Positions 1-10,002 of a DNA stretch of 10,002 nt are shown here, one piece after another (position 1 is the first letter of the stretch; each line of letters opens with the position of its first letter). The notes beneath the pieces were generated by a model. That model worked only from the letters and a program-made list of their open reading frames with translations. It had not been told where the DNA came from and searched no databases. The position numbers and the translations under genes are program-made. Source of the DNA: Chloroflexota bacterium (GTDB taxonomy: Bacteria; Chloroflexota; Dehalococcoidia; JAUQQI01); contig JAUQQI010000040.1 in assembly GCA_030549955.1 (NCBI GenBank), positions 973 through 10,974 of the forward strand. The letters are read 5' to 3'.

Positions 1-1089
1 GATATCCTGGCCCGCTCTGCCGTTGAGGTCGCCCAGCTTGAACCCCTCACCATTCGGATGGTTGTCCAGGTCCGACCAAAGGTCCAGCTTGGCAACTACC
101 GGTCCATTCGCCTGGAGCGGCCCGTCATCGCCGTGACGGACGAGGAGATTGCCCAGCGGCTCGAAGAGCTGCGCAAACGCTACGCAACCCTGGAGCCGGT
201 TGACCGGCCGGTCGAGGCGGGCGACCGGGTTATGGCCGACATTACCGGCTGGGTGAACGACGAGGAATTCATCCGCCGGGAGGCCTATGAGCTTACCGCC
301 GGGGACGACCCGGCCATCTTTCCGCCGGGCTTCGGCAGGCAGCTCATCGGTCGGGCCAAGGGCGAAACCCTCGAATTTACGCTGGTTTACCCCAAAGATT
401 TTCAGGTCGGACAGCTTGCCGGCAAAGAGGCCCGGTTTCAGGTCACGGTCAATGACGTCAAGGTTGAGCGGCTCCCGGAGCTGGATGACGAGTTTGCCCG
501 GACGGTTGAGGGCGACTTTGAAACCCTGGGTCAGCTCCGGGAACACATCCGGTCAGACCTCCTCCGCCAGAAGGAGGAGCAGGCTGAAGACGAGTACCGG
601 CGCCAGGTCCTGGAGGCGGTCATCGCTGGCGCCAGCGTTGAGATTCCGCCCGTTATGGTCGACCAGCAGGTCGAACGCATGGTGGAAGACCTGGCCGACC
701 GCCTCGCCCAGATGCGGCTCAACCTGGTCCAGTACCTCAGGGGCACCGGCCGGACCGAGGAGCAGCTCCGGGAAGAATTCCGGCCCCAGGCCCGGCGCAT
801 ACTCCTCGAGCAGCTGGTCCTGGACGCCGTCGCCGAAGCCGAGGGAATTGAGGTCAGTGATGACGACGTCCGGGCCGAAGCCGAAAGCATTGGCGGGCCG
901 GCCGGCGCAGCCAGGGACCAGGTTATGGAGTTCTTCACCCAGGGTGCGGGCCGGGACCACCTTACGAATATCATCCGGCGGCGCCGGGCGCTCGAACGGC
1001 TTGTTGAAATAGCTGCCTCGCCCGAGCCGCCCGCCGAAACTGAACCGACGGAAGGGAGTGGCGATGACGAAGGGACTTTACCTGCCTGA
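1..1089 (+). CDS. tig: Trigger factor, 5'-truncated by window edge
   Basis: Ribosome-associated chaperone and peptidyl-prolyl isomerase that meets nascent chains at the exit tunnel. The frame is open from base 1, so the gene starts outside the window; the first in-frame ATG (58) is internal. The fragment has 362 residues. Roughly 90 N-terminal residues, most of the ribosome-binding domain, are missing. The linker motif [13 protein letters not shown] is at about residues 24-36. The FKBP-like isomerase domain spans about 73-154, shown by [22 protein letters not shown], the FTLVYPKDF strand and [12 protein letters not shown]. The helical C-terminal chaperone arms follow from about 155, rich in Glu, Arg and Gln, and end in an acidic, proline-rich tail. 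Its 3' end overlaps clpP by 26 bases in another frame. The order tig-clpP-clpX is a classic bacterial operon and supports the call. Confidence 0.95.
1052..1058 (+). promoter_or_regulatory. Shine-Dalgarno that fixes the clpP start
   Basis: AAGGGAG lies inside the 3' end of tig, five bases before ATG 1064. An in-frame GTG at 1058 would add two residues, but its G is the last base of this Shine-Dalgarno, so it cannot use it. ATG 1064 is therefore the better start. Confidence 0.7.
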
Positions 1090-1693
1090 AACCCATTCGG
1101 CCATTATCCCCATGGTCATCGAGCAGACGGGCCGTGGGGAGCGGGTCTACGATATCTTCTCGCTCCTGCTTAAGGAGCGGATCATCTTCCTGGGCACACC
1201 CATCAATGACCAGGTTGCAAACCTGATCATTGCCCAGCTTCTCTACCTGGACCGGGAAGACCCGGAAAAGGACATCCACCTGTATATCAGCTCGCCGGGT
1301 GGGGTGATAACGGCGGGCCTCGCGATCTATGACACGATGCAGCTCATCCGGCCGGATGTTCAGACGATCTGTGTCGGCATGGCCGCGAGCATGGCGACGG
1401 TCCTCCTGGCCGCCGGGGCGAAGGGTAAGCGGTTCGCCCTGCCCCACTCCACCATCCACATGCACCAGGCCCAGGTGGGCAGCGTCGGGGGCGCGGCCGC
1501 CGACGTGGAGATCATGGCCAAGGAGATTCTCCGCCAGCAGGACCAGATTCGGCGGATCCTGGCTTACCACACCGGCCAGCCGCTCGAGCGGATCATCCGG
1601 GATACCGACCGCGACTTCTTCATGACGCCCGAGCAGGCGGTCGAGTATGGTATCATTGATGAGGTCTTGACGAAACCGGGTCGGGGCGCCTAG
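1064..1693 (+). CDS. clpP: ATP-dependent Clp protease proteolytic subunit
   Basis: Serine peptidase (family S14) that forms the tetradecameric degradation chamber in the cytoplasm and is fed by ClpX, and usually also by ClpA or ClpC. The protein has 209 residues, near the usual family length. The full catalytic triad is visible: Ser109 in GMAASMA, His134 in IHMHQ and Asp184 in TDRDFF. The oxyanion region SSPGG is at 76-80. One extra residue lies between His and Asp (50 apart rather than the usual 49), within the [15 protein letters not shown] stretch. The N-terminus (MTKGLYLPE, then [18 protein letters not shown]) is standard, with little room for a long propeptide. The gene overlaps tig by 26 bases and lies 26 bases before clpX, implying cotranscription and probable translational coupling. 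Its partner ClpX keeps the IGF docking loop, so the pair should form ClpXP. Confidence 0.97.
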
Positions 1694-1719: not shown

Positions 1720-3030
1720 ATGTCAAACTCTCGGAACTCACGGGTTCAGTACCATTGCTCCTTCTGCGGTAAAAGCCAGGACCAGGTTCGACGGCTGATT
1801 GCCGGACCCGGGTCCGTCTTCATCTGCGACGAGTGTGTTGACCTCTGCCGCGAAATCATCGATGAGGAGGGGGCGCCGCCGCCGAAGCCCCGGGGCGCAC
1901 CGACCAGCATCCCGACGCCCCGCCAGATTTACGACCAGCTCAGCCAGTATGTCATTGGCCAGGAGCGGGCCAAGAAGGTCCTGTCGGTCGAGCGGGCCAA
2001 GAAGGTCCTCTCGGTCGCCGTCTACAACCACTACAAGCGCATCCTTATGGGCGGTCAGATCGATGACGTCGAGCTACAGAAGAGCAACATCCTGCTCATC
2101 GGCCCGACCGGCTGCGGCAAGACGCTCCTGGCCCAGACCCTGGCGAAGATCCTCGACGTCCCGTTCACCATTGCCGACGCGACGTCCCTGACTGAGGCTG
2201 GCTACGTCGGCGAGGACGTCGAGAATATCCTGCTCCGGCTCATCCAGGCCGCCGACTACGACCTGGCCCGGGCCGAACGGGGCATCGTTTATATTGACGA
2301 GATCGACAAGATCGCCCGCAAGGGCCCGAACCCGTCCATTACCCGGGACGTTTCCGGCGAAGGCGTCCAGCAGGCCCTGCTGAAGATCCTGGAGGGCACC
2401 ATCGCCAATGTCCCGCCCCAGGGGGGCCGCAAGCACCCCCATCAGGAGTTCATTCAGATAAACACCCAGAATATCCTCTTCATCTGCGGCGGCGCCTTTG
2501 AGGGCCTTGACAAAATCATCGCACGCCGCCTGAACAAGGACCGGCGGATCGGGTTCACCGCCGTTAACGAGAAGCGGGCGCCGGAGACCGTCGACGCCCT
2601 CCTCCGGCAGGTGACCCCCGACGACCTGCTCGAGTTCGGGCTGATTCCCGAGTTTATCGGCCGGCTCCCGATTATCGTGACCCTGGACAGCCTGAATAAG
2701 GATGCGCTTATCCGGATTCTGACCGAACCGAAGAACGCGGTCATCAAGCAATACCAGAAGATCTTTGCCCTGGATAAGGTCGAGCTTATTTTCACCCCGG
2801 ATGCCCTCGAAGCCGCCGCCGAAGAGGCCCTCCGGCACAAGACCGGCGCCCGGGGCCTGCGGACCATCATTGAAGATGTGCTCCTGGACGTGATGTATGA
2901 GCTTCCATCGAGGCCCGACGTGCGCAAGTGCATCATCAACGCCGACACCATCCTCAAGCGGGCTCAGCCGATTCTGCTTAATCGCTACGACCGGCCGGTG
3001 ACGACCGAACCGGTCGACGAATCAGCCTGA
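1720..3030 (+). CDS. clpX: ClpX, unfoldase of ClpXP, with a 9-residue tandem duplication
   Basis: AAA+ unfoldase that recognises, unfolds and feeds proteins to ClpP. It has 436 residues. The N-terminal zinc-binding domain has Cys13, Cys16, Cys36 and Cys39. In the AAA+ core I see the box II motif YVIGQ (77-81), Walker A GPTGCGKT (128-135), the pore-1 loop GYVG (161-164), Walker B IVYIDEID (189-196), the RKH loop (237-239), the ClpP-docking IGF loop (277-279), the arginine finger in EFIGR (Arg315) and the sensor-2 segment GARGLR (376-381, Arg378). All functional elements are intact. The oddity is ERAKKVLSV twice in a row (82-90 and 91-99), where the family has one copy before [11 protein letters not shown] 1720 has GGAG at 1710-1713, six bases upstream. 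The gene is last in the operon and is followed by a strong terminator. Confidence 0.97.
1963..2016 (+). repeat. 27-bp in-frame tandem duplication inside clpX
   Basis: Two head-to-tail 27-base copies, 1963-1989 and 1990-2016, differ at one position only (G at 1983, C at 2010; both Leu codons). Each encodes ERAKKVLSV. Removing either copy restores the usual ClpX sequence running from VIGQ into AVYNHYKR, so this is an insertion by duplication and not a normal domain difference. The silent mismatch argues against a simple copy artefact but does not exclude an assembly error. Confidence 0.9.
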
Positions 3031-3051: not shown

Positions 3052-3085
3052 GCCGGGCGGTCCTCTTGGGCCGCCCGGCCTTTTT
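3052..3085 (+). terminator. Intrinsic terminator of the tig-clpP-clpX operon
   Basis: A perfect 9-bp GC stem (GCCGGGCGG at 3052-3060 with CCGCCCGGC at 3071-3079) extends inwards by GG-rich pairs including one G-T pair, closing on a TCTT tetraloop. A T-tract follows at 3081-3085. It lies 21 bases after the clpX stop. Its T-tract touches the stop codon of the convergent gene. On the - strand the same hairpin has no T-tract after it, so it should end + strand transcripts best. Confidence 0.9.
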
Positions 3086-3864
3086 CAGGCGGCCGTCCCA
3101 AACCACCGGCCCTCAAGGGCCGCGAGGGTTCCGGCCGCCCGGAGTCTGACTAAGGCACCTTCAACCCGCTCATACAGGGCCCGAGCGTCGGCCCGCAGAA
3201 GCAGGCCGAGGGGCCGGGAAATCAGGGGTGCCGGTTCGATAGTCAGGGTCGGGTTGAGGCCGAGGGCCTGCCGGGCGACGATATAGTTCAAGACGGCCGC
3301 GTCAACCTGGCCGGACGCCAGGGCCCAAGCCGCCTCCCGGGCTGACCAGTAGGCCACCGGCTCGAGGGTACGCTGTCGGGCAACCTCCCGGGCCCGGCTT
3401 TCGGCCTCGCCCGCCGCCTCAAAACCGAGCCGGCCGGTCCGGGCCCCGGCCGTCACCAGAAAGTAGCCAACGTCGATATACGGGCTCGTGAACCGGAAGT
3501 GCTCTTCGTATTCCGGCCCGGGATTAAGCCCGGCCGCGACGTCTGCCCGGCCGGTAAAGACCAGGTCGGGCAGCACCTCCACCGAATCGGTGACAAAGTC
3601 CGCCCGCAGGCCGAGGTCGTCGGCCAGGCTCCGGCAGAGGTCCGGTTCGAAGCCGACCGGCCGGCCCGCCGGGTCCAGGTCTGAGAGGGGCGGATAGCTC
3701 GGGTCAAGGGCGACCCGGAGCCGCCCCGATGCCCGGACCTTCTCCCAGCTCAGGTCAGGTCCCAAAGGCCGGCATCCCGCCAGGACGACAAACCCGGACA
3801 GGACCGCCAGGAACCCCCGCCGCGAGAACGGCCGCGATTCGGTCTCAAGTCGCGACCCGGGCAA
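3085..3864 (-). CDS. Family 3 solute-binding lipoprotein with a Tat-type signal
   Basis: Substrate-binding protein of the SBP_bac_3 fold, normally the extracytoplasmic receptor of a polar amino acid ABC transporter. With TTG 3864 as start it has 259 residues. The signal peptide holds a twin-arginine motif SRRGFL (14-19) and a lipobox LAGC with Cys31, so it is probably exported folded by Tat and lipid-anchored. Family signatures: RLRVALDPSYPPLSDL (48-63), GRPVGFEPDLCRSLADDLG (67-85), GRADVAAGL (105-113), FTSPYIDVGYFLV (125-137) and the second-lobe segment GQVDAAVLNYIVA. The Arg that usually binds the ligand carboxylate is Tyr119, and the Asp that usually binds the amino group is Asn193, so the ligand may not be an alpha-amino acid. 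No permease or ATPase gene is adjacent. It overlaps the upstream yceI-like gene. A TTG at 3876 is also in frame but directly abuts the GGAGG. Confidence 0.85.
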   Translation of the reverse strand: MPGSRLETESRPFSRRGFLAVLSGFVVLAGCRPLGPDLSWEKVRASGRLRVALDPSYPPLSDLDPAGRPVGFEPDLCRSLADDLGLRADFVTDSVEVLPDLVFTGRADVAAGLNPGPEYEEHFRFTSPYIDVGYFLVTAGARTGRLGFEAAGEAESRAREVARQRTLEPVAYWSAREAAWALASGQVDAAVLNYIVARQALGLNPTLTIEPAPLISRPLGLLLRADARALYERVEGALVRLRAAGTLAALEGRWFGTAA

Positions 3865-4534
3865 CGGTAAAGTCAACCTCCAGGCGGATGTTGTCCTCGA
3901 CGCTCAGGACAACTGCGACCCGCGGCACCTGCATGTTAAAATCCCCGAACTTAAAGCTTGTTGTCGCCGTACCCGTGACCTGGTCGCCCGCGAATTTCGC
4001 GGTCACTTCCCAGATGACCGGTCGGGTCGTGCCGTGAACGGTCATGTCGCCCACAAGCTGGAAGGTGGTTTCACCCGATGCCGGCAGGGGCCACGGCAGT
4101 CCTCGGGCCTCCCGGGGCACAAATTCGGCCGTCGGGTAGCGGCTCACTTCTAAGGTGTTTGTCTTGATGAAGTTGTCCCGGCGCTGTTCGTTGCTCCGCA
4201 GGGTTGTTAAGTCAACCGTAAGCTTCGAGGCCGAGCTGATGATGGACCCGTCGCGCGCAAAAGCAATTGTCCCGGAGATGGCCTTAGTTCGGCCGATCGC
4301 GTCGCTCGGAAACTGCAGGTTTGCAAGCTGTTCCCGGACACGGTAGCGGGCCTCGCTCTGGTCGGGAACAATTCTGAAGGCGACGGCCGCGGCCGGCCCC
4401 GAGCCGGATGCTGCGGTGGGGGTTCCCGAAGGCCGGGTCTCGGCCCCGGGGCTCGGGACCGTAGCCTGAGGCTGTCCGCAGGCCGCCAGCACCGTTGCCA
4501 GCAGGATTAAAATTAAAAATCCGTTCCTTACCAC
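3845..4534 (-). CDS. YceI-family lipoprotein
   Basis: YceI-like proteins have a lipocalin-like beta-barrel; characterised members bind polyisoprenoid or similar apolar ligands outside the cytoplasm. From GTG 4534 the protein has 229 residues. The signal peptide is a short basic start followed by FLILILLATVLAAC, with lipobox LAAC and Cys19. A Pro/Ser/Thr/Gly/Ala linker spans about 20-50. The YceI domain fills the rest: FRIVPDQSEARYRV, AISGTIAFARDG, the hallmark DLTTLRSNEQRRDNFIKT followed by SRYPTAEFV, then GDMTVHGTTRPVIWEV and FKFGDFNM. GTG 4579 is in frame but has no Shine-Dalgarno and would place unusual residues before the signal peptide; AGGAGG at 4548-4553 serves GTG 4534, though 13 bases away. 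The stop lies inside the next gene, so the two lipoproteins are probably translated together. The actual ligand is unknown. Confidence 0.88.
   Translation of the reverse strand: MVRNGFLILILLATVLAACGQPQATVPSPGAETRPSGTPTAASGSGPAAAVAFRIVPDQSEARYRVREQLANLQFPSDAIGRTKAISGTIAFARDGSIISSASKLTVDLTTLRSNEQRRDNFIKTNTLEVSRYPTAEFVPREARGLPWPLPASGETTFQLVGDMTVHGTTRPVIWEVTAKFAGDQVTGTATTSFKFGDFNMQVPRVAVVLSVEDNIRLEVDFTVARVAT
3877..3881 (-). promoter_or_regulatory. Shine-Dalgarno of the solute-binding protein gene
   Basis: GGAGG on the - strand lies inside the end of the YceI-like gene. It is directly next to TTG 3876 (no spacing) and 12 bases from TTG 3864. The second start is favoured; the long spacing matches that of the upstream gene (13 bases). 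Confidence 0.5.
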
Positions 4535-4632
4535 GTTTCTGACACACCCTCCTGGAACGAATTTCGCTTCCCCGCGCACCGGGGCTGGGTGGGCTCGCGG
4601 GCGCTGCCTTCTCCCCGCAAGCTCCCTAAGAA

Positions 4633-4662
4633 ATTAACACAGGTGGGCGAAAGGGCTGTTAA
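4633..4662 (-). promoter_or_regulatory. Predicted promoter of the YceI/solute-binding operon
   Basis: On the - strand TTAACA (4662-4657; five of six matches to TTGACA) is followed after 18 bp by GTTAAT (4638-4633; four of six matches to TATAAT). A TG one base upstream makes it an extended -10. It would start transcription near 4626, giving a leader of about 90 bases. The -35 lies inside the third unit of the phased repeat array. Confidence 0.5.
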
Positions 4663-4685
4663 ACCGGTGCAAAATCCCTGTTAAA
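4642..4685 (-). repeat. Four 11-bp phased direct repeats, probable response-regulator site
   Basis: Read on the - strand, the units are TTTAACAGGGA (4685-4675), TTTTGCACCGG (4674-4664), TTTAACAGCCC (4663-4653) and TTTCGCCCACC (4652-4642). All begin TTT and have C at position 6. Units 1 and 3 share TTTAACAG exactly, at a 22-bp distance. Direct repeats at one helical turn, TTAACA-like, overlapping a -35 are typical of PhoB/PhoP/OmpR-family regulators. The assignment to that family is inference. Confidence 0.5.
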
Positions 4686-4945
4686 CCCGGCATGGCCGGC
4701 GTGTACTGAGGTCCAGGACCGGCTATTTCAGGGCGCTTTAATTGGGGGCCCGGCAATTCGAAATCTTCTCGATTAGCTAACACAACGGTGTACCCGAGCG
4801 CTAACTGACCGGGCCACCAGACCAGTTGCAGGAGTCCGGTTCGCGGCGGGAAACCCAGAACAACCGGCAGCTCAGCCAGGAGTTCAGCCGGGCCGCCTAG
4901 GGCGGCACAGCCGGCCCTGCTGAGTCGGGCGTGACCTGGCCAACC
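4686..4945. other. Non-coding stretch between the YceI unit and the molybdenum enzyme gene
   Basis: About 260 bases with no credible gene on either strand. The part nearest the repeats (4731-4800) is more A+T-rich than its surroundings and contains GCTAAC twice (4776 and 4800). The right part holds the hairpin listed separately. I see no tRNA, riboswitch or transposon end here. Confidence 0.6.
4871..4924 (-). terminator. GC-rich hairpin downstream of the molybdenum enzyme gene, possible weak terminator
   Basis: Outer arms CTCAGC (4871-4876) and GCTGAG (4919-4924) extend by AGG/CCT past one bulged base. Inside is a perfect GCCGCC-TAG-GGCGGC hairpin (4892-4906). A - strand transcript would enter it about 20 bases after the stop at 4946. 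There is no T-tract, so it is not a standard intrinsic terminator; it may act with Rho or protect a 3' end. Confidence 0.3.
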
Positions 4946-7213
4946 TTACCGCAACGCCCGCCAGAGCCGCTCCGGGGTGATGGGCAGTTCGGTGATGCGG
5001 ACCCCGGCCGCATCCCGGACGGCGTTGGCTACCGCCGCCAGGGTCGGGACGATAGGCGGTTCGCCCACCCCCCGGGCCCCAAATGGGCCCAGCTCCGACG
5101 GCACCTCCACCAGCTCAACTTCGAACCCCGGAACGTCCGCTGCCCGGGGCAGGGCGTAGTCCAGGAACGAGCCGGTGAGCAATTCGCCCTGCTCATCGAA
5201 TACCAGCTGTTCCATCAGAGCCCAGCCGAGGCCCTGGGTTGCCCCGCCGTGGACCTGGCCTTCGATGGTGAGGGGGTTGATGGCCCGACCGACGTCCTGG
5301 ACGGCCAGGAACCTGGTCGGCCGAATTAGGCCCGTCTCCGGGTCGACCTCGACCTCGACAACCTGGACCGTGAAGCCCGGGGCCTGGCGGCCGATGCTCG
5401 ATTCGCCTTCGGCGACGATAGGGGCAAGTCCCCGGTGGCCGGCGTAGGTCCTTTGCCCGAGCTCCCCGAGGCTTATCCCCCGCCCCGGCACCCCCCGCAC
5501 CGAAACATAGCCATCCTTAAGCTCCAGGTCGTCGGGATTGGCCTCCAGGTATTCAGCGGCCACCCGCAGGATTTTTTCGCGGGCCGCCTGGGCCGCCCGG
5601 ACCACGGCCGCGCCCACCGTGTAAGTTATCTTGCTTCCGCCGCTCGCCCCGGCGAAGGGTCCAAGGGCCGTGTCCCCAAAGATTATCCGGACCTTCTCGG
5701 GCTGAAGGCCGAGAACTTCAGCGGCGATCAGCATGAGGGCCGTATCCGTACCGTTTCCGAGGTCAATCGACCCGACGTGAAGCTGCAAGGTGCCGTCCTC
5801 CTCCAGGCGACAGACGGCCGTTGCCGGACCAAGCCCACCCGGCCACCCACCTAAGGCAAGGCCGACGCCCCGGCCATTTCGCCGGCGGTCCCGCCAGATA
5901 GGATGGTTTTGGACCACGCTCAGGCAGGCCGCGGCCCCGATTTCAGGCCACCGGCGCTCGGTAGCCGCCGGAATCCGGTCGCCCCTGGCGGCGACATTCC
6001 GCAGGCGAAACTCCAGGGGGTCGATGCCGAGCCGGCGGGCCAGCTCGTCCATCTGCGATTCGATGGCGAACGTGGCCTGGGGTGCCCCCGGCGCCCGGTA
6101 GGCCCCGGTCGCCGGCTTATTGGTCAAGACTTCCCAGGTTCGAATCCGCAGGTTCGGCCAGCGGTAGTAGCCGCCCAGGAGCATCGCCATTATTCCCGAG
6201 ATCCCGGCCCGGTAAATGCCCGAATCGATGTAGATGTTGGCATCCAGGGCGGTCAGAGTTCCGTCCCGGCGAACCCCGGTCTTGAGGCGGATGACGGTGG
6301 CGGGGGCCGGGGTTGTCGCCAGCAAGTCCTCGGCCCGGGTCAGGGCTATCCCGACGGGCCGCCGGACCGCGAGGGCGGCGGCCACTGCCAGGGGTTCGAG
6401 GGTGCCGTACTTCGCCCCGAAGCCGCCGCCGATTTTCAGGGGAACAACCCGAACAGCCGACTTTGGCAGGCCGGTGATGTCGGCGATGAGGTCCCGGACG
6501 ATATACTGGCCCTGGGTGCTGGTGTAGACGGTAATGCCCCCACCCAGGGGGTCGGGCGCGGCGACGGCGGCGTGGGGCTCCAGGTAGTTCTGGTGGACGA
6601 ACTGGGTCCGGTAAGTGGTCTCGAGAATAAGGTCGGCCTGGGCAAACCCGGCCTCAACATCCCCCCAGCCGACAGTTGACCGGGCGGCCAGGTTGCCACC
6701 GGCGGTCTGCTCGGCCGCATTTACGGGCCCAGCGTGGACGTCGGCGTCTTCGCGCTTTTCACCGGGCACACCCCCGGGCCAGACCAAGACGTCCCGCTCG
6801 GTCAGGGCCGTCAGGGGGTCAATAACCGGCCGGAGGGGCTCATAGTCCACCTCAACGGCTTCGGCACCGTCCCGGGCGGCGAGTTCGTTCTCGGCCAGAA
6901 CCAGGGCAACGGGCTGGCCCCGGAATATCACCCGGTCCCGGGCAAGAATAAGGCGGGACCGGGTCGTTGGCTCCGGCTGGATGGGCAGGTCGGCGGCCGT
7001 GAGGACGGCAACGACGCCGGGAACCTGCCGGGCCCGGTCGGTGCGAATGGCCCGGATGCGGGCGTGGGCATAGGGGCTCAGGATCGGCCGGCCGAAGAGC
7101 ATGCCCGGCAGGCGGAGGTCGGCCGGGTAACGGGCGGCCCCGGTGACTTTCTCTTTACCGTCGACGAGCGGAATCCTTCGGCCGATATACGTGGTTGCGG
7201 TTCCCGAGATCAT
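4946..7213 (-). CDS. Xanthine dehydrogenase-family molybdopterin-binding large subunit
   Basis: Large subunit of a molybdenum hydroxylase, which binds the Mo-pterin cofactor and hydroxylates a heterocycle or aldehyde, or in related enzymes oxidises CO. Complete at 755 residues. The N-terminal aldehyde oxidase/xanthine dehydrogenase a/b hammerhead domain spans about 15-130 (GRRIPLVDGKEKVTGAARY, LFGRPILSPYAHARI, RGQPVALVLAE). The Mo-pterin domain carries STQGQY (232-237), IGGGFGAKYG (261-270), GAYRAPGAPQ (370-379), DLGNGTDT (484-491), GQVHGGATQGLG (652-663) and GPFGARGVGEPP (709-720), where Glu718 is the catalytic Glu. The Gln common in the D-x-G-Q-G motif is Asn487 here. It lacks the CO dehydrogenase loop AYRCSFR, so it is not a form I CoxL; the substrate is unknown. 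Residues about 140-180 are a hydrophilic insertion-like stretch. ATG 7213 has GCGAGG nine bases upstream. FAD and 2Fe-2S partner genes are not adjacent. Confidence 0.92.
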   Translation of the reverse strand: MISGTATTYIGRRIPLVDGKEKVTGAARYPADLRLPGMLFGRPILSPYAHARIRAIRTDRARQVPGVVAVLTAADLPIQPEPTTRSRLILARDRVIFRGQPVALVLAENELAARDGAEAVEVDYEPLRPVIDPLTALTERDVLVWPGGVPGEKREDADVHAGPVNAAEQTAGGNLAARSTVGWGDVEAGFAQADLILETTYRTQFVHQNYLEPHAAVAAPDPLGGGITVYTSTQGQYIVRDLIADITGLPKSAVRVVPLKIGGGFGAKYGTLEPLAVAAALAVRRPVGIALTRAEDLLATTPAPATVIRLKTGVRRDGTLTALDANIYIDSGIYRAGISGIMAMLLGGYYRWPNLRIRTWEVLTNKPATGAYRAPGAPQATFAIESQMDELARRLGIDPLEFRLRNVAARGDRIPAATERRWPEIGAAACLSVVQNHPIWRDRRRNGRGVGLALGGWPGGLGPATAVCRLEEDGTLQLHVGSIDLGNGTDTALMLIAAEVLGLQPEKVRIIFGDTALGPFAGASGGSKITYTVGAAVVRAAQAAREKILRVAAEYLEANPDDLELKDGYVSVRGVPGRGISLGELGQRTYAGHRGLAPIVAEGESSIGRQAPGFTVQVVEVEVDPETGLIRPTRFLAVQDVGRAINPLTIEGQVHGGATQGLGWALMEQLVFDEQGELLTGSFLDYALPRAADVPGFEVELVEVPSELGPFGARGVGEPPIVPTLAAVANAVRDAAGVRITELPITPERLWRALR

Positions 7214-7283
7214 GCCCCTGAACCTCGCTGGCTGGAGTTTTCAGGCCGGTTAGGCAGGGAGGATTCCCGCCCCGGTTAATTAA

Positions 7284-7312
7284 AGCCTACGACGCCCCGC
7301 CGCCGGCGTCAA
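7284..7312 (-). promoter_or_regulatory. Predicted promoter of the molybdenum enzyme gene
   Basis: TTGACG (7312-7307; five of six to consensus), a 17-bp spacer and TAGGCT (7289-7284; TANNNT, common in high-GC bacteria). It predicts a leader of about 65 bases before ATG 7213. A perfect dyad, GACGCC-N8-GGCGTC, occupies 7291-7310, across most of the spacer and part of the -35. Confidence 0.5.
7291..7310. repeat. 20-bp dyad in the spacer of the molybdenum enzyme promoter
   Basis: Perfect 6-bp arms GACGCC (7291-7296) and GGCGTC (7305-7310) around eight bases. Its place between -35 and -10 suits a repressor operator or a MerR-type activator. GC-rich 6-bp arms can also arise by chance in this composition. 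Confidence 0.3.
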
Positions 7313-7334
7313 CCCCGGCGCCCTGCTGCCGGTT

Positions 7335-7340
7335 TAAAAT
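7335..7340 (+). promoter_or_regulatory. -10 element predicting a leaderless mRNA for the glycosyltransferase
   Basis: TAAAAT (five of six to TATAAT) ends eight bases before GTG 7348, so transcription should start at or next to the start codon. There is no Shine-Dalgarno of usual spacing and no good -35. This arrangement is typical of leaderless genes in several high-GC phyla. Confidence 0.45.
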
Positions 7341-7347
7341 AACAGGT

Positions 7348-10002
7348 GTGCTGACTGTACGGCTGGCCGGAAAAGCGGGCTACGAGCTTTTAGAGACGCC
7401 TGCCGGTCCTCAGCGGCAAACCCGCTGGCGACTTTACTGGCTGATCCTGCTGGTTCTCGCCTTTGGCCTGCGGGTTCACGGCCTCGACTCTAAAAGCATC
7501 TGGCTTGATGAGGCCCTGAGCTTCCACCGGGCAGCAACCCTCGACCGGGCAATCTCAGGGTTGGTCGTAACCGGGGGCGTTCCGAGCCGGGATACCCAGC
7601 CGCCACTTTACTTTGTGCTACTTTACGGTCTTCTCAGCCTGGCCGGACCCTCGGATTTTGCGGGCAAATTTCTCTCGGTTTTCTTCTCGACCCTGCTGGT
7701 CCCACTTCTGGGAGCCATCGGCTCCCGGCTGGGGGGTCAGCGGGCGGGCCTGCTCGCGGGCCTGTTGGGTGCGGTCTCGCCCCTGTACGTGTGGTATGCC
7801 CAGGAAGTCCGAATGTACGCCCTGCTGGCGTTCTTCGCCGGCCTGGTTATCTACCTGGGCCTGAGGTCCGTCAACGCTCTGGGGCAAGGCGACCGGAAGG
7901 CCAGTATCACCTGGGCCACATTTACTGTTCTGGTGGCAGTCCTGGGCATTCTAACCCAGTATGTTGCGGTCTTTACCGTTCCGGCCCTCGGGTTCGGCTT
8001 TGCGGCGGCCATTCTCCGGGGAAAGCGGGTCCCGGTCCTTGTTGGAACCGCGGCCCTCGGGATCATCGGGCCGGCCCTGCTGGTTGATGCGGCCTGGGGC
8101 CGGCTTCTGACGGCCCCGACGCCCCAGTTTGACCAGGTTCCGGTCCCGGTGGCCCTCTGGGACCTTGCCGCCCGCACAGCCGGAGGCCTGACCCTGGACG
8201 GGCCCGCGCTTAATGGCCTGGCAGCCCTTTTCGCCGTTCTGGCGGCCCTCGGACTGGCCCGGGGTCTGCCCCGGCCCAGCCGATTGTGGCTCGTCGGGGT
8301 CGTTACCATCCCGCCCCTGGCAACGGCCCTGGTCGGGGCCCAGAAGCCCCTCATCTCAAACGTTCGGCATCTGATTTTTGCAGCGCCCGGCCTGTACATT
8401 GCCGCCGCCCTGGGCATCGATTATATGACCCGGCAGGCCCGTTGGGCCGCAGTGCCTGCCATCGGGGCCCTATTGGGAGGGGCCATCATTGGGCTTACCG
8501 CCTACTTTGACCCAGGCTTTCAGAAGGACGATTTCCGGTCCCTCGTCGAATACCTGGAGGCGAACGTCGGGCCCAACGACCTGGTCCTCGCCCACGAGGC
8601 AACCGTCTATCACGTCTTCGAGCATTATGACGGGGGGTATTTACCGGTCGAGGCTCTGCCCCGGTTCGGCGAGTCGGTGGGGACCCGGCTCTCGCCTGAG
8701 TTTGAGGCCCGGCTCCGGGAACTTCGGAACACTCACCGGCGCATCTGGCTTATTTACTGGCCTCGAAGCATCGCCGGCGACCCCGCGAGCCTGGTTCCCG
8801 GCTGGTTTGACCGGCACCTCTTCCCGGCCGCGGACCGGGCCTTCGCTGGCCGGGGGATGGGGGTGGCCGTCCGGACCTACCTGACCCACCCGCCGGTTGA
8901 ATCCACCCTGCCGGCCGGACTCCAGCCGGTCGACCTGACGTCGGCCGACGGCCTCAAACTCCTCGGCTGGAAGGCTGCTTCCGCCCCAACCCCCGACGGC
9001 CGCATTGAGCTGTCGTTCTACTTCCAGGTTGACCGGAACCCCCTGACGGATTACCGTCTGGTAGCCCGGCTGGTGGATAGCCAGGACCACGTTTGGGCGG
9101 CTTTTGATGGCCGGCCGATTCCGGCCTGGCCGACCACCCGCTGGCCCAGGGGCCAGGCCGTCCGGGCCGACATTCTGCTCCGGCTTAAACCGGGGGCGCC
9201 GCCCGGCAATTACCGGCTCGAGGCCGGGCTGGCCCCCGAAAGCGACGAGAAGCCTGCTCTCCTGCTGGGGCCGGGGGGCGGCCCGGTGGGGACTATGGTC
9301 AGCCTGGGAGAGGTTCAGACCGTCGGGGCCTATCGCCACCGCCCGGACTTTGACCGCCGGGCCCCGAAGGGCCTGAATCTCGCCTGCGGGTGCGGGCTTC
9401 GCATCCTGGACGTGGTGGCGGAGGGCCGAACAACCATTCCGGGCCAGCCTTTAACACTTTGGGGCTACTACCGGGTCGAAGAACCGGTCGACCTCACGGC
9501 CTATCGGCTCACCATTGAGTTGCGCCGAAATGGTATCCCGGCGGTCACCGGCGTCTGGCCGCTGGTTTTGCCCGCTTTCACCGGGCCCGAACCCAAAGCC
9601 GGCGACTGGCTGGCCAGGGCTTACGACCTGCGGATACCCGTCGGGGTTGCGGCCGGCGAGTACCGGCTGGTTGGCCGGATTCTCGGCCCGGAAAATTCCC
9701 CGGCGCCCCTTTACCCGTTATTACCCGGCTTTGCTAGGACCGAGTTTGACCTCGGACCCGTGCAGGTGATCGTCACCGGCCAGCAATTTGAGTCGCCGAG
9801 CCCTTCCCGTTCCGCCGATGCGTATTTCGGCAACCTCCTCCGGCTCCGGGGCTACGACCTCGCCCTGCCCGAATCCGACCGGCTCCAGGTGACCCTCTAC
9901 TGGGAGGTCCTGGGCCCCTCGGACCGGAAGCTTAAGGTCTCGGTGCAGCTCTTTGCTGGTCCGAAGCTCATCGCCCAGGATGATAGCGTGCCCGTCAACT
10001 GG
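7348..10002 (+). CDS. GT39-type membrane glycosyltransferase with repeated exported domains, 3'-truncated
   Basis: GT-C fold glycosyltransferase of the PMT/ArnT-like family 39, expected to transfer a sugar from a polyprenyl-phosphate donor on the outer face of the membrane. The frame is open for 885 codons to the window edge with no stop. GTG 7348 is the only good start; the next in-frame ATG codes for Met156. A basic N-tail precedes the first membrane segment (about 29-43). The first outer loop has IWLDEALS with catalytic-type Asp54-Glu55, then DTQPPLYFVLLY (82-93) and YAQEVRMYALL (150-160, Glu153, Arg155), all family hallmarks. Further hydrophobic segments continue to about 388. The rest is soluble: a segment typical of these enzymes (QKDDFRSLVEYLEANVGPND), then three repeated beta-sandwich-like units from about 532, 675 and 824, the last cut off. 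Such tails are common in Chloroflexota proteins. The acceptor (protein, lipid or glycan) is unknown. It is divergent from the molybdenum enzyme gene. Confidence 0.88.
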   Translation, partial: MLTVRLAGKAGYELLETPAGPQRQTRWRLYWLILLVLAFGLRVHGLDSKSIWLDEALSFHRAATLDRAISGLVVTGGVPSRDTQPPLYFVLLYGLLSLAGPSDFAGKFLSVFFSTLLVPLLGAIGSRLGGQRAGLLAGLLGAVSPLYVWYAQEVRMYALLAFFAGLVIYLGLRSVNALGQGDRKASITWATFTVLVAVLGILTQYVAVFTVPALGFGFAAAILRGKRVPVLVGTAALGIIGPALLVDAAWGRLLTAPTPQFDQVPVPVALWDLAARTAGGLTLDGPALNGLAALFAVLAALGLARGLPRPSRLWLVGVVTIPPLATALVGAQKPLISNVRHLIFAAPGLYIAAALGIDYMTRQARWAAVPAIGALLGGAIIGLTAYFDPGFQKDDFRSLVEYLEANVGPNDLVLAHEATVYHVFEHYDGGYLPVEALPRFGESVGTRLSPEFEARLRELRNTHRRIWLIYWPRSIAGDPASLVPGWFDRHLFPAADRAFAGRGMGVAVRTYLTHPPVESTLPAGLQPVDLTSADGLKLLGWKAASAPTPDGRIELSFYFQVDRNPLTDYRLVARLVDSQDHVWAAFDGRPIPAWPTTRWPRGQAVRADILLRLKPGAPPGNYRLEAGLAPESDEKPALLLGPGGGPVGTMVSLGEVQTVGAYRHRPDFDRRAPKGLNLACGCGLRILDVVAEGRTTIPGQPLTLWGYYRVEEPVDLTAYRLTIELRRNGIPAVTGVWPLVLPAFTGPEPKAGDWLARAYDLRIPVGVAAGEYRLVGRILGPENSPAPLYPLLPGFARTEFDLGPVQVIVTGQQFESPSPSRSADAYFGNLLRLRGYDLALPESDRLQVTLYWEVLGPSDRKLKVSVQLFAGPKLIAQDDSVPVNW
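8941..10002 (+). repeat. Three diverged beta-sandwich-like repeats in the glycosyltransferase tail
   Basis: Each unit opens with a short hydrophobic strand (GLKLLGWKA near 8950, GLRILDVVA near 9394, LRLRGYDLAL near 9838), followed by a strand of the form L-x-L/V-x-F/Y-x-Y/W (IELSFYFQV, PLTLWGYYRV, LQVTLYWEV), then a polar strand on ligand-like loops. Units 1 and 2 end with GNYRLEAGL or GEYRLVGRI. The repeats are diverged protein repeats, not DNA repeats. Unit 3 is incomplete. Confidence 0.6.

Follow-up and report, generated by a model that had tools for sequence, protein, structure and literature searches.

The clpX gene in the window, the whole 10,002-bp stretch of DNA analysed here, carries a 27-bp tandem duplication, so that ClpX has nine extra residues between the VIGQ box and the following helix. 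As a sequence observation, the duplication is correct and confirmed. We put at even odds the explanation that it is a real, private, in-frame duplication in the organism's only clpX and is tolerated as a bulge. To judge from how its nearest named relatives are labelled, the organism is probably Chloroflexota-like.

A 27-bp tandem duplication in an otherwise intact clpX

The clpX gene (1720–3030, plus strand) encodes 436 residues in an uninterrupted frame. At 1963–2017, Tandem Repeats Finder reports a repeat of period 27 with 2.0 copies and 96% matches. The first copy (1963–1989, plus strand; residues 82–90) and the second copy (1990–2016, plus strand; residues 91–99) adjoin each other and are identical at 26 of 27 positions. 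Codon comparison shows that each copy encodes ERAKKVLSV and that the sole mismatch, CTG versus CTC in the leucine codon, is silent, exactly as the initial annotation had described. The VIGQ codons (1951–1962, plus strand; residues 78–81), located from the sequence and the alignment, lie immediately 5′ of the duplication, and the duplication junction has about one base in common. A further tandem pair (period 12–300, at least 92% identity) is not found elsewhere in the window. When the bases of 60 contigs from this genome were shuffled once per contig, tandem pairs of period 18–90 number 0 at 92% identity or more, 0 at 85%, and 1 at 80%. The absence of pairs at 92% identity, both in the rest of the window and in the shuffled contigs, indicates that the clpX duplication is not due to chance.

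The remainder of the protein is that of a ClpX. It matches NCBIfam NF003745 with 648 bits (cut-off 359) and TIGR00382 with 646 bits (cut-off 370.75), and contains the Pfam domains zf-C4_ClpX, AAA_2, and ClpB_D2-small. The N-terminal C4 zinc finger is present (PF06689, 72 bits; cut-off 27), and its residues C13, C16, C36, and C39 are invariant in an alignment of 70 sequences. Residues G128–T135 (except residue 132), G161–G164, D193–E194, and G376–R378 are invariant in the same alignment. The motifs of ClpX we take to be Walker A (GPTGCGKT), Walker B, the pore loop (GYVG), the IGF loop, and sensor II (GARGLR). Curated models, zinc finger, Walker A and B, pore loop, sensor II, and fold all identify the protein as ClpX; what it lacks is the uninterrupted 12-residue segment between the box and NHYKR, which is a regularity of our sample, not a defining criterion of ClpX. 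The open frame, the scores above both NCBIfam cut-offs, and the alignment agree with the earlier statement that the remaining motifs are intact.

On the plus strand the gene order is tig–clpP–clpX. The upstream neighbour of clpX is clpP (1058–1693, plus strand; NF001368, 307 bits, cut-off 249), preceded by the trigger factor gene tig (1–1089, plus strand; TIGR00115, 281 bits, cut-off 180), whose 5′ end lies beyond the window. The longest clpP frame has a candidate GTG start within the 3′ end of tig, giving a 32-bp overlap (1058–1089). The neighbours at 3085–10002 are ordinary: a SBP_bac_3 solute-binding protein, a YceI-like protein, a molybdopterin-binding dehydrogenase subunit, and a PMT_2-type membrane glycosyltransferase. 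At 2572–2577, between residues 285 and 286 of ClpX, the window protein has one residue fewer (NEK-RAPE) than its nearest relatives, P0001 and P0002; the loop concerned varies in length.

The duplication is absent from the retrieved relatives

The distance from the YVIGQ-type box to NHYKR is 21 residues in the window. Of 109 clpX loci (29 loci of relatives, with four more long matches left out, and the best 80 of 592), 106 have a distance of 12 residues, as do all 128 retrieved proteins (the best 120 of 7,998 scored, and 8 new ones among 10 from a region search). Of the other three loci, L067 has VIKQ, and its distance was read by eye as 12; L043 and L092 fall outside the measurement. The distance is measured up to the first NHYKR; two proteins described below (P0121 and P0122) score 12 despite a further copy downstream. 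Within this sample, then, the segment is constant, as had been claimed.

P0001 and P0002, the nearest among 5.8 billion database proteins, are 97.7% and 96.7% identical to the window ClpX, with 10 differences (4 of them before the duplication site) and 14 differences, respectively, over 427 aligned residues. The alignment shows one copy in each. In a search with residues 72–114, scoring covered the 7,999 candidates with the most words in common, and none of the 10 proteins returned is a second carrier. The database holds one representative per 90% cluster, and a carrier could therefore hide behind P0001 or P0002. A search for genomes of the same order returned the window's own genome alone. 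In a literature search for ClpX with tandem or in-frame duplication or insertion, no such ClpX appears in the titles and abstract openings of the papers listed.

Judged from these comparisons, the duplication is a single private event among the retrieved sequences. The single copy in P0001 and P0002 and the 12-residue distance constant in the sample count against its reality in the organism. They also bear on the idea that the insertion is functional and specific to a clade, adjusting the ATPase or the subunit packing of ClpX. The site of the insert next to the VIGQ box and the one silent difference, which hints at some age, are consistent with such a role, but the insert is absent from the two nearest relatives, turns up in no further protein among the 7,999 scored (members inside 90% clusters being hidden), and shows no amino-acid change in either copy. 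A tuning insertion is therefore very unlikely.

Predicted structure of the duplicated segment

We modelled the window protein with AlphaFold2 together with 69 relatives, and P0001 in the same way with 68. In the model of the window protein, residues 78–88 are coil and residues 89–110 form a helix of 22 residues. In the model of P0001, the helix after VIGQ comprises residues 82–100 (19 residues), corresponding to residues 91–109 in window numbering. The second copy is thus predicted to fill the place of the native helix, with most of the first copy looped out. The initial annotation had proposed that the extra residues lengthen the helix, or loop out of it, by about two and a half turns; the model agrees with a loop-out before the helix and disagrees with a lengthening of that size (89–110 versus 82–100).

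The looped-out residues are modelled with low confidence. The pLDDT of the window protein is below 50 at residues 83–85 and averages 56 over residues 81–90, as compared with 95 over residues 81–90 of P0001; the preceding block of the window protein (residues 71–80), which includes VIG, averages 86. The model is superimposable on ClpX crystal structures with an rmsd of 1.6 Å over 311 residues (4i34_B) and 1.7 Å over 316 residues (3hte_A). ClpX entries come first in both Foldseek searches; the top row is a full-length integrative model (9a5x_A) with an rmsd of about 10, presumably due to domain placement. The ClpX core fold is therefore predicted to be kept, with the first copy as a low-confidence loop. 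The confidence of the five models ranges from 83.1 to 69.5 for the window protein and from 81.5 to 79.3 for P0001, and this wider spread would argue against the reality of the duplication. Because no relative in the alignment has the insert, the model says little about stability.

Gene copy number and tandem repeats in the assembly

The window's own assembly comprises 2,472,290 bases in 334 contigs and is 82.36% complete. No second full ClpX is found in it. Beyond this gene, the clpX search yields pieces of 45% on contig C334 and 41% on C4, together with weak AAA+ similarity on C255; the pieces on C334 and C4 both fall below the clpX cut-off and are read as putative HslU. The initial annotation had called for a search for a second clpX, and a second gene rescuing the altered copy was also considered; neither is found in this assembly, 82% complete.

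Sixty of the 334 contigs (640,803 bases, including 2,860 N) were scanned for tandem pairs, and a repeat of the scan with N masked gave the same three pairs. Only two are duplications of at least 15 bp with at least 92% identity, that in clpX and one in L149, and both are in frame within long open frames; the third is an exact 12-bp pair in L144. The pair in L149 (12659–12700) is a 21-bp tandem pair with 20 of 21 positions identical, in frame within a 403-residue open frame near a contig end. Among pairs of period 18–90, the period is divisible by three in 4 of 4 at 85% identity and in 17 of 18 at 80%. With only two pairs of at least 15 bp at 92% identity, the sampled contigs are not littered with duplication errors.

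Assembly artefact as a competing explanation

An assembly artefact would explain the duplication in another way: two contig or strain paths that share a conserved 27-bp word, one with CTG and the other with CTC, were abutted unmerged, and a single biological copy was doubled. We give this explanation a chance a little short of even. The number 27 is a k-mer size in short-read assemblers. De Bruijn assemblers usually collapse repeats instead of creating them. The genome is fragmented (334 contigs), as such an artefact would have it, and the 27-bp word is conserved: with at most two mismatches it occurs in 4 of 109 other clpX loci, these from other families: two in the same class (L009 and L013), one labelled Caldilineae (L043), and one labelled Actinomycetes (L052). 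Among the 35 of 109 loci within six mismatches of the word, the leucine codon is CTC in 22, CTG in 8, CTT in 3, and TTG in 2. Against an artefact, neither copy has an exact match in any of the 109 other loci, the reading frame is preserved, comparable duplications are nearly absent from the sampled 641 kb, and one lineage is found on both flanks, with 4 of the 10 differences from P0001 over 427 residues before the site. The frame could have been kept by luck, 1 time in 3.

Four of the 128 retrieved proteins (P0003, P0121, P0122, and P0123) resemble chimeras and thereby lend the artefact further support. P0003, of 557 residues and from a Limnocylindrales assembly according to its source name, consists of two AAA+ pieces in one frame joined near FIQIDTTNIL, and is probably a mis-join. 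P0121 and P0122, on contigs of 2.9 and 3.4 kb, contain additional diverged copies of the same ClpX stretch and look like mis-joins. P0123 (402 residues, on a 55-kb contig) is identical to P0001 over a block of 179 residues (68–246) that starts one residue before YVIGQ, and differs from it at both ends. The next longest block identical to P0001, P0002 aside, is 60 residues; with the window protein, the longest identical block of P0123 is 173 residues, from the second copy onward. Either assembly produced a chimera here or P0123 arose by true recombination. ClpX thus looks like a place of assembly mis-joins, and chimeric contigs from related genomes are an acknowledged problem in short-read metagenome assembly (PMC7299287).

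For the reality of the duplication speak the kept frame of clpX and its other, intact motifs. In addition, the copies differ silently, which mere repetition of one sequence by error would not produce. A single silent change over nine codons would fit either a duplication of some age or two strain alleles joined together. Consequently, of the suggestion of a recent slippage event in one strain, the in-frame duplication stands and its recency fits poorly, unless two strain alleles have been joined. On balance, the odds are about the same for a real bulge as for an assembly artefact, and assembly error receives more weight here than it did in the initial annotation.

Occurrence of ClpX in the class

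Among 59 relatives of the same class, 33 have a clpX that passes the cut-off, and in G058 a piece of the gene lies at a contig edge. The remaining 25 give nothing beyond weak matches and appear to lack clpX. Fifteen of these 25 are listed as at least 90% complete, and two of the fifteen (G012 and G048) each consist of one contig. Among the control genomes, 10 of 14 pass the clpX cut-off and 14 of 14 match at a loose threshold. ClpX seems to occur patchily in the class and to be dispensable in parts of it. A tolerated or defective allele is therefore conceivable, which is not proof for the allele in the window.

Alternatively, a damaging duplication might segregate in the population as a defective clpX allele, survivable since ClpX is not always required. 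In keeping with this, the insertion falls within a segment that does not vary in the sample, and no more than 34 of the 60 genomes sampled from the class, counting the window's own, have a clpX that clears the family cut-off. Yet the rest of the gene is without decay, 417 of 427 residues being identical to P0001 in an open frame, and we regard such an allele as improbable.

Discussion

In the explanation that we put at even odds, a real and tolerated bulge, the 27-bp duplication would have arisen once, probably by replication misalignment or template switching. The second copy is predicted to replace the native helix that follows VIGQ, leaving the first as a flexible loop of about 7–9 residues between the VIGQ box and the helix. 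The fold, Walker A and B, the pore loop, the IGF loop, and sensor II would remain in place, and the protein would therefore probably retain assembly and function, although its nucleotide handling may be altered. We infer that the duplication is real in the organism, that clpX is expressed, and that activity is retained. One could go further and propose a reversible switch, in which the repeat expands and contracts in frame between one and two copies and the interconverting forms of ClpX differ in nucleotide handling at VIGQ, but we hold this to be highly doubtful.

The duplication is a single private event, with an artefact as a plausible explanation alongside. A real duplication would be a test, set by nature, of how far a model AAA+ motor tolerates change in a constant element adjoining the VIGQ box. 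An artefact would serve as a warning that, in metagenome assemblies, mis-joins tend to fall in conserved parts of clpX. Under either reading it is not a new system, and there is no sign of a new function.

Like P0121, P0122, and P0003, the window ClpX repeats a conserved portion of ClpX in a single open frame. In those proteins, however, the copies are diverged and longer, whereas the copies in the window are 26/27 identical and exactly tandem. Compared with P0001 and P0002, the window ClpX also has one residue fewer between residues 285 and 286. Compared with known ClpX (TIGR00382 and NF003745), it has the same zinc finger, motifs, tig–clpP–clpX gene order, and predicted fold, and differs by an insert of nine residues separating VIGQ from the helix that follows.
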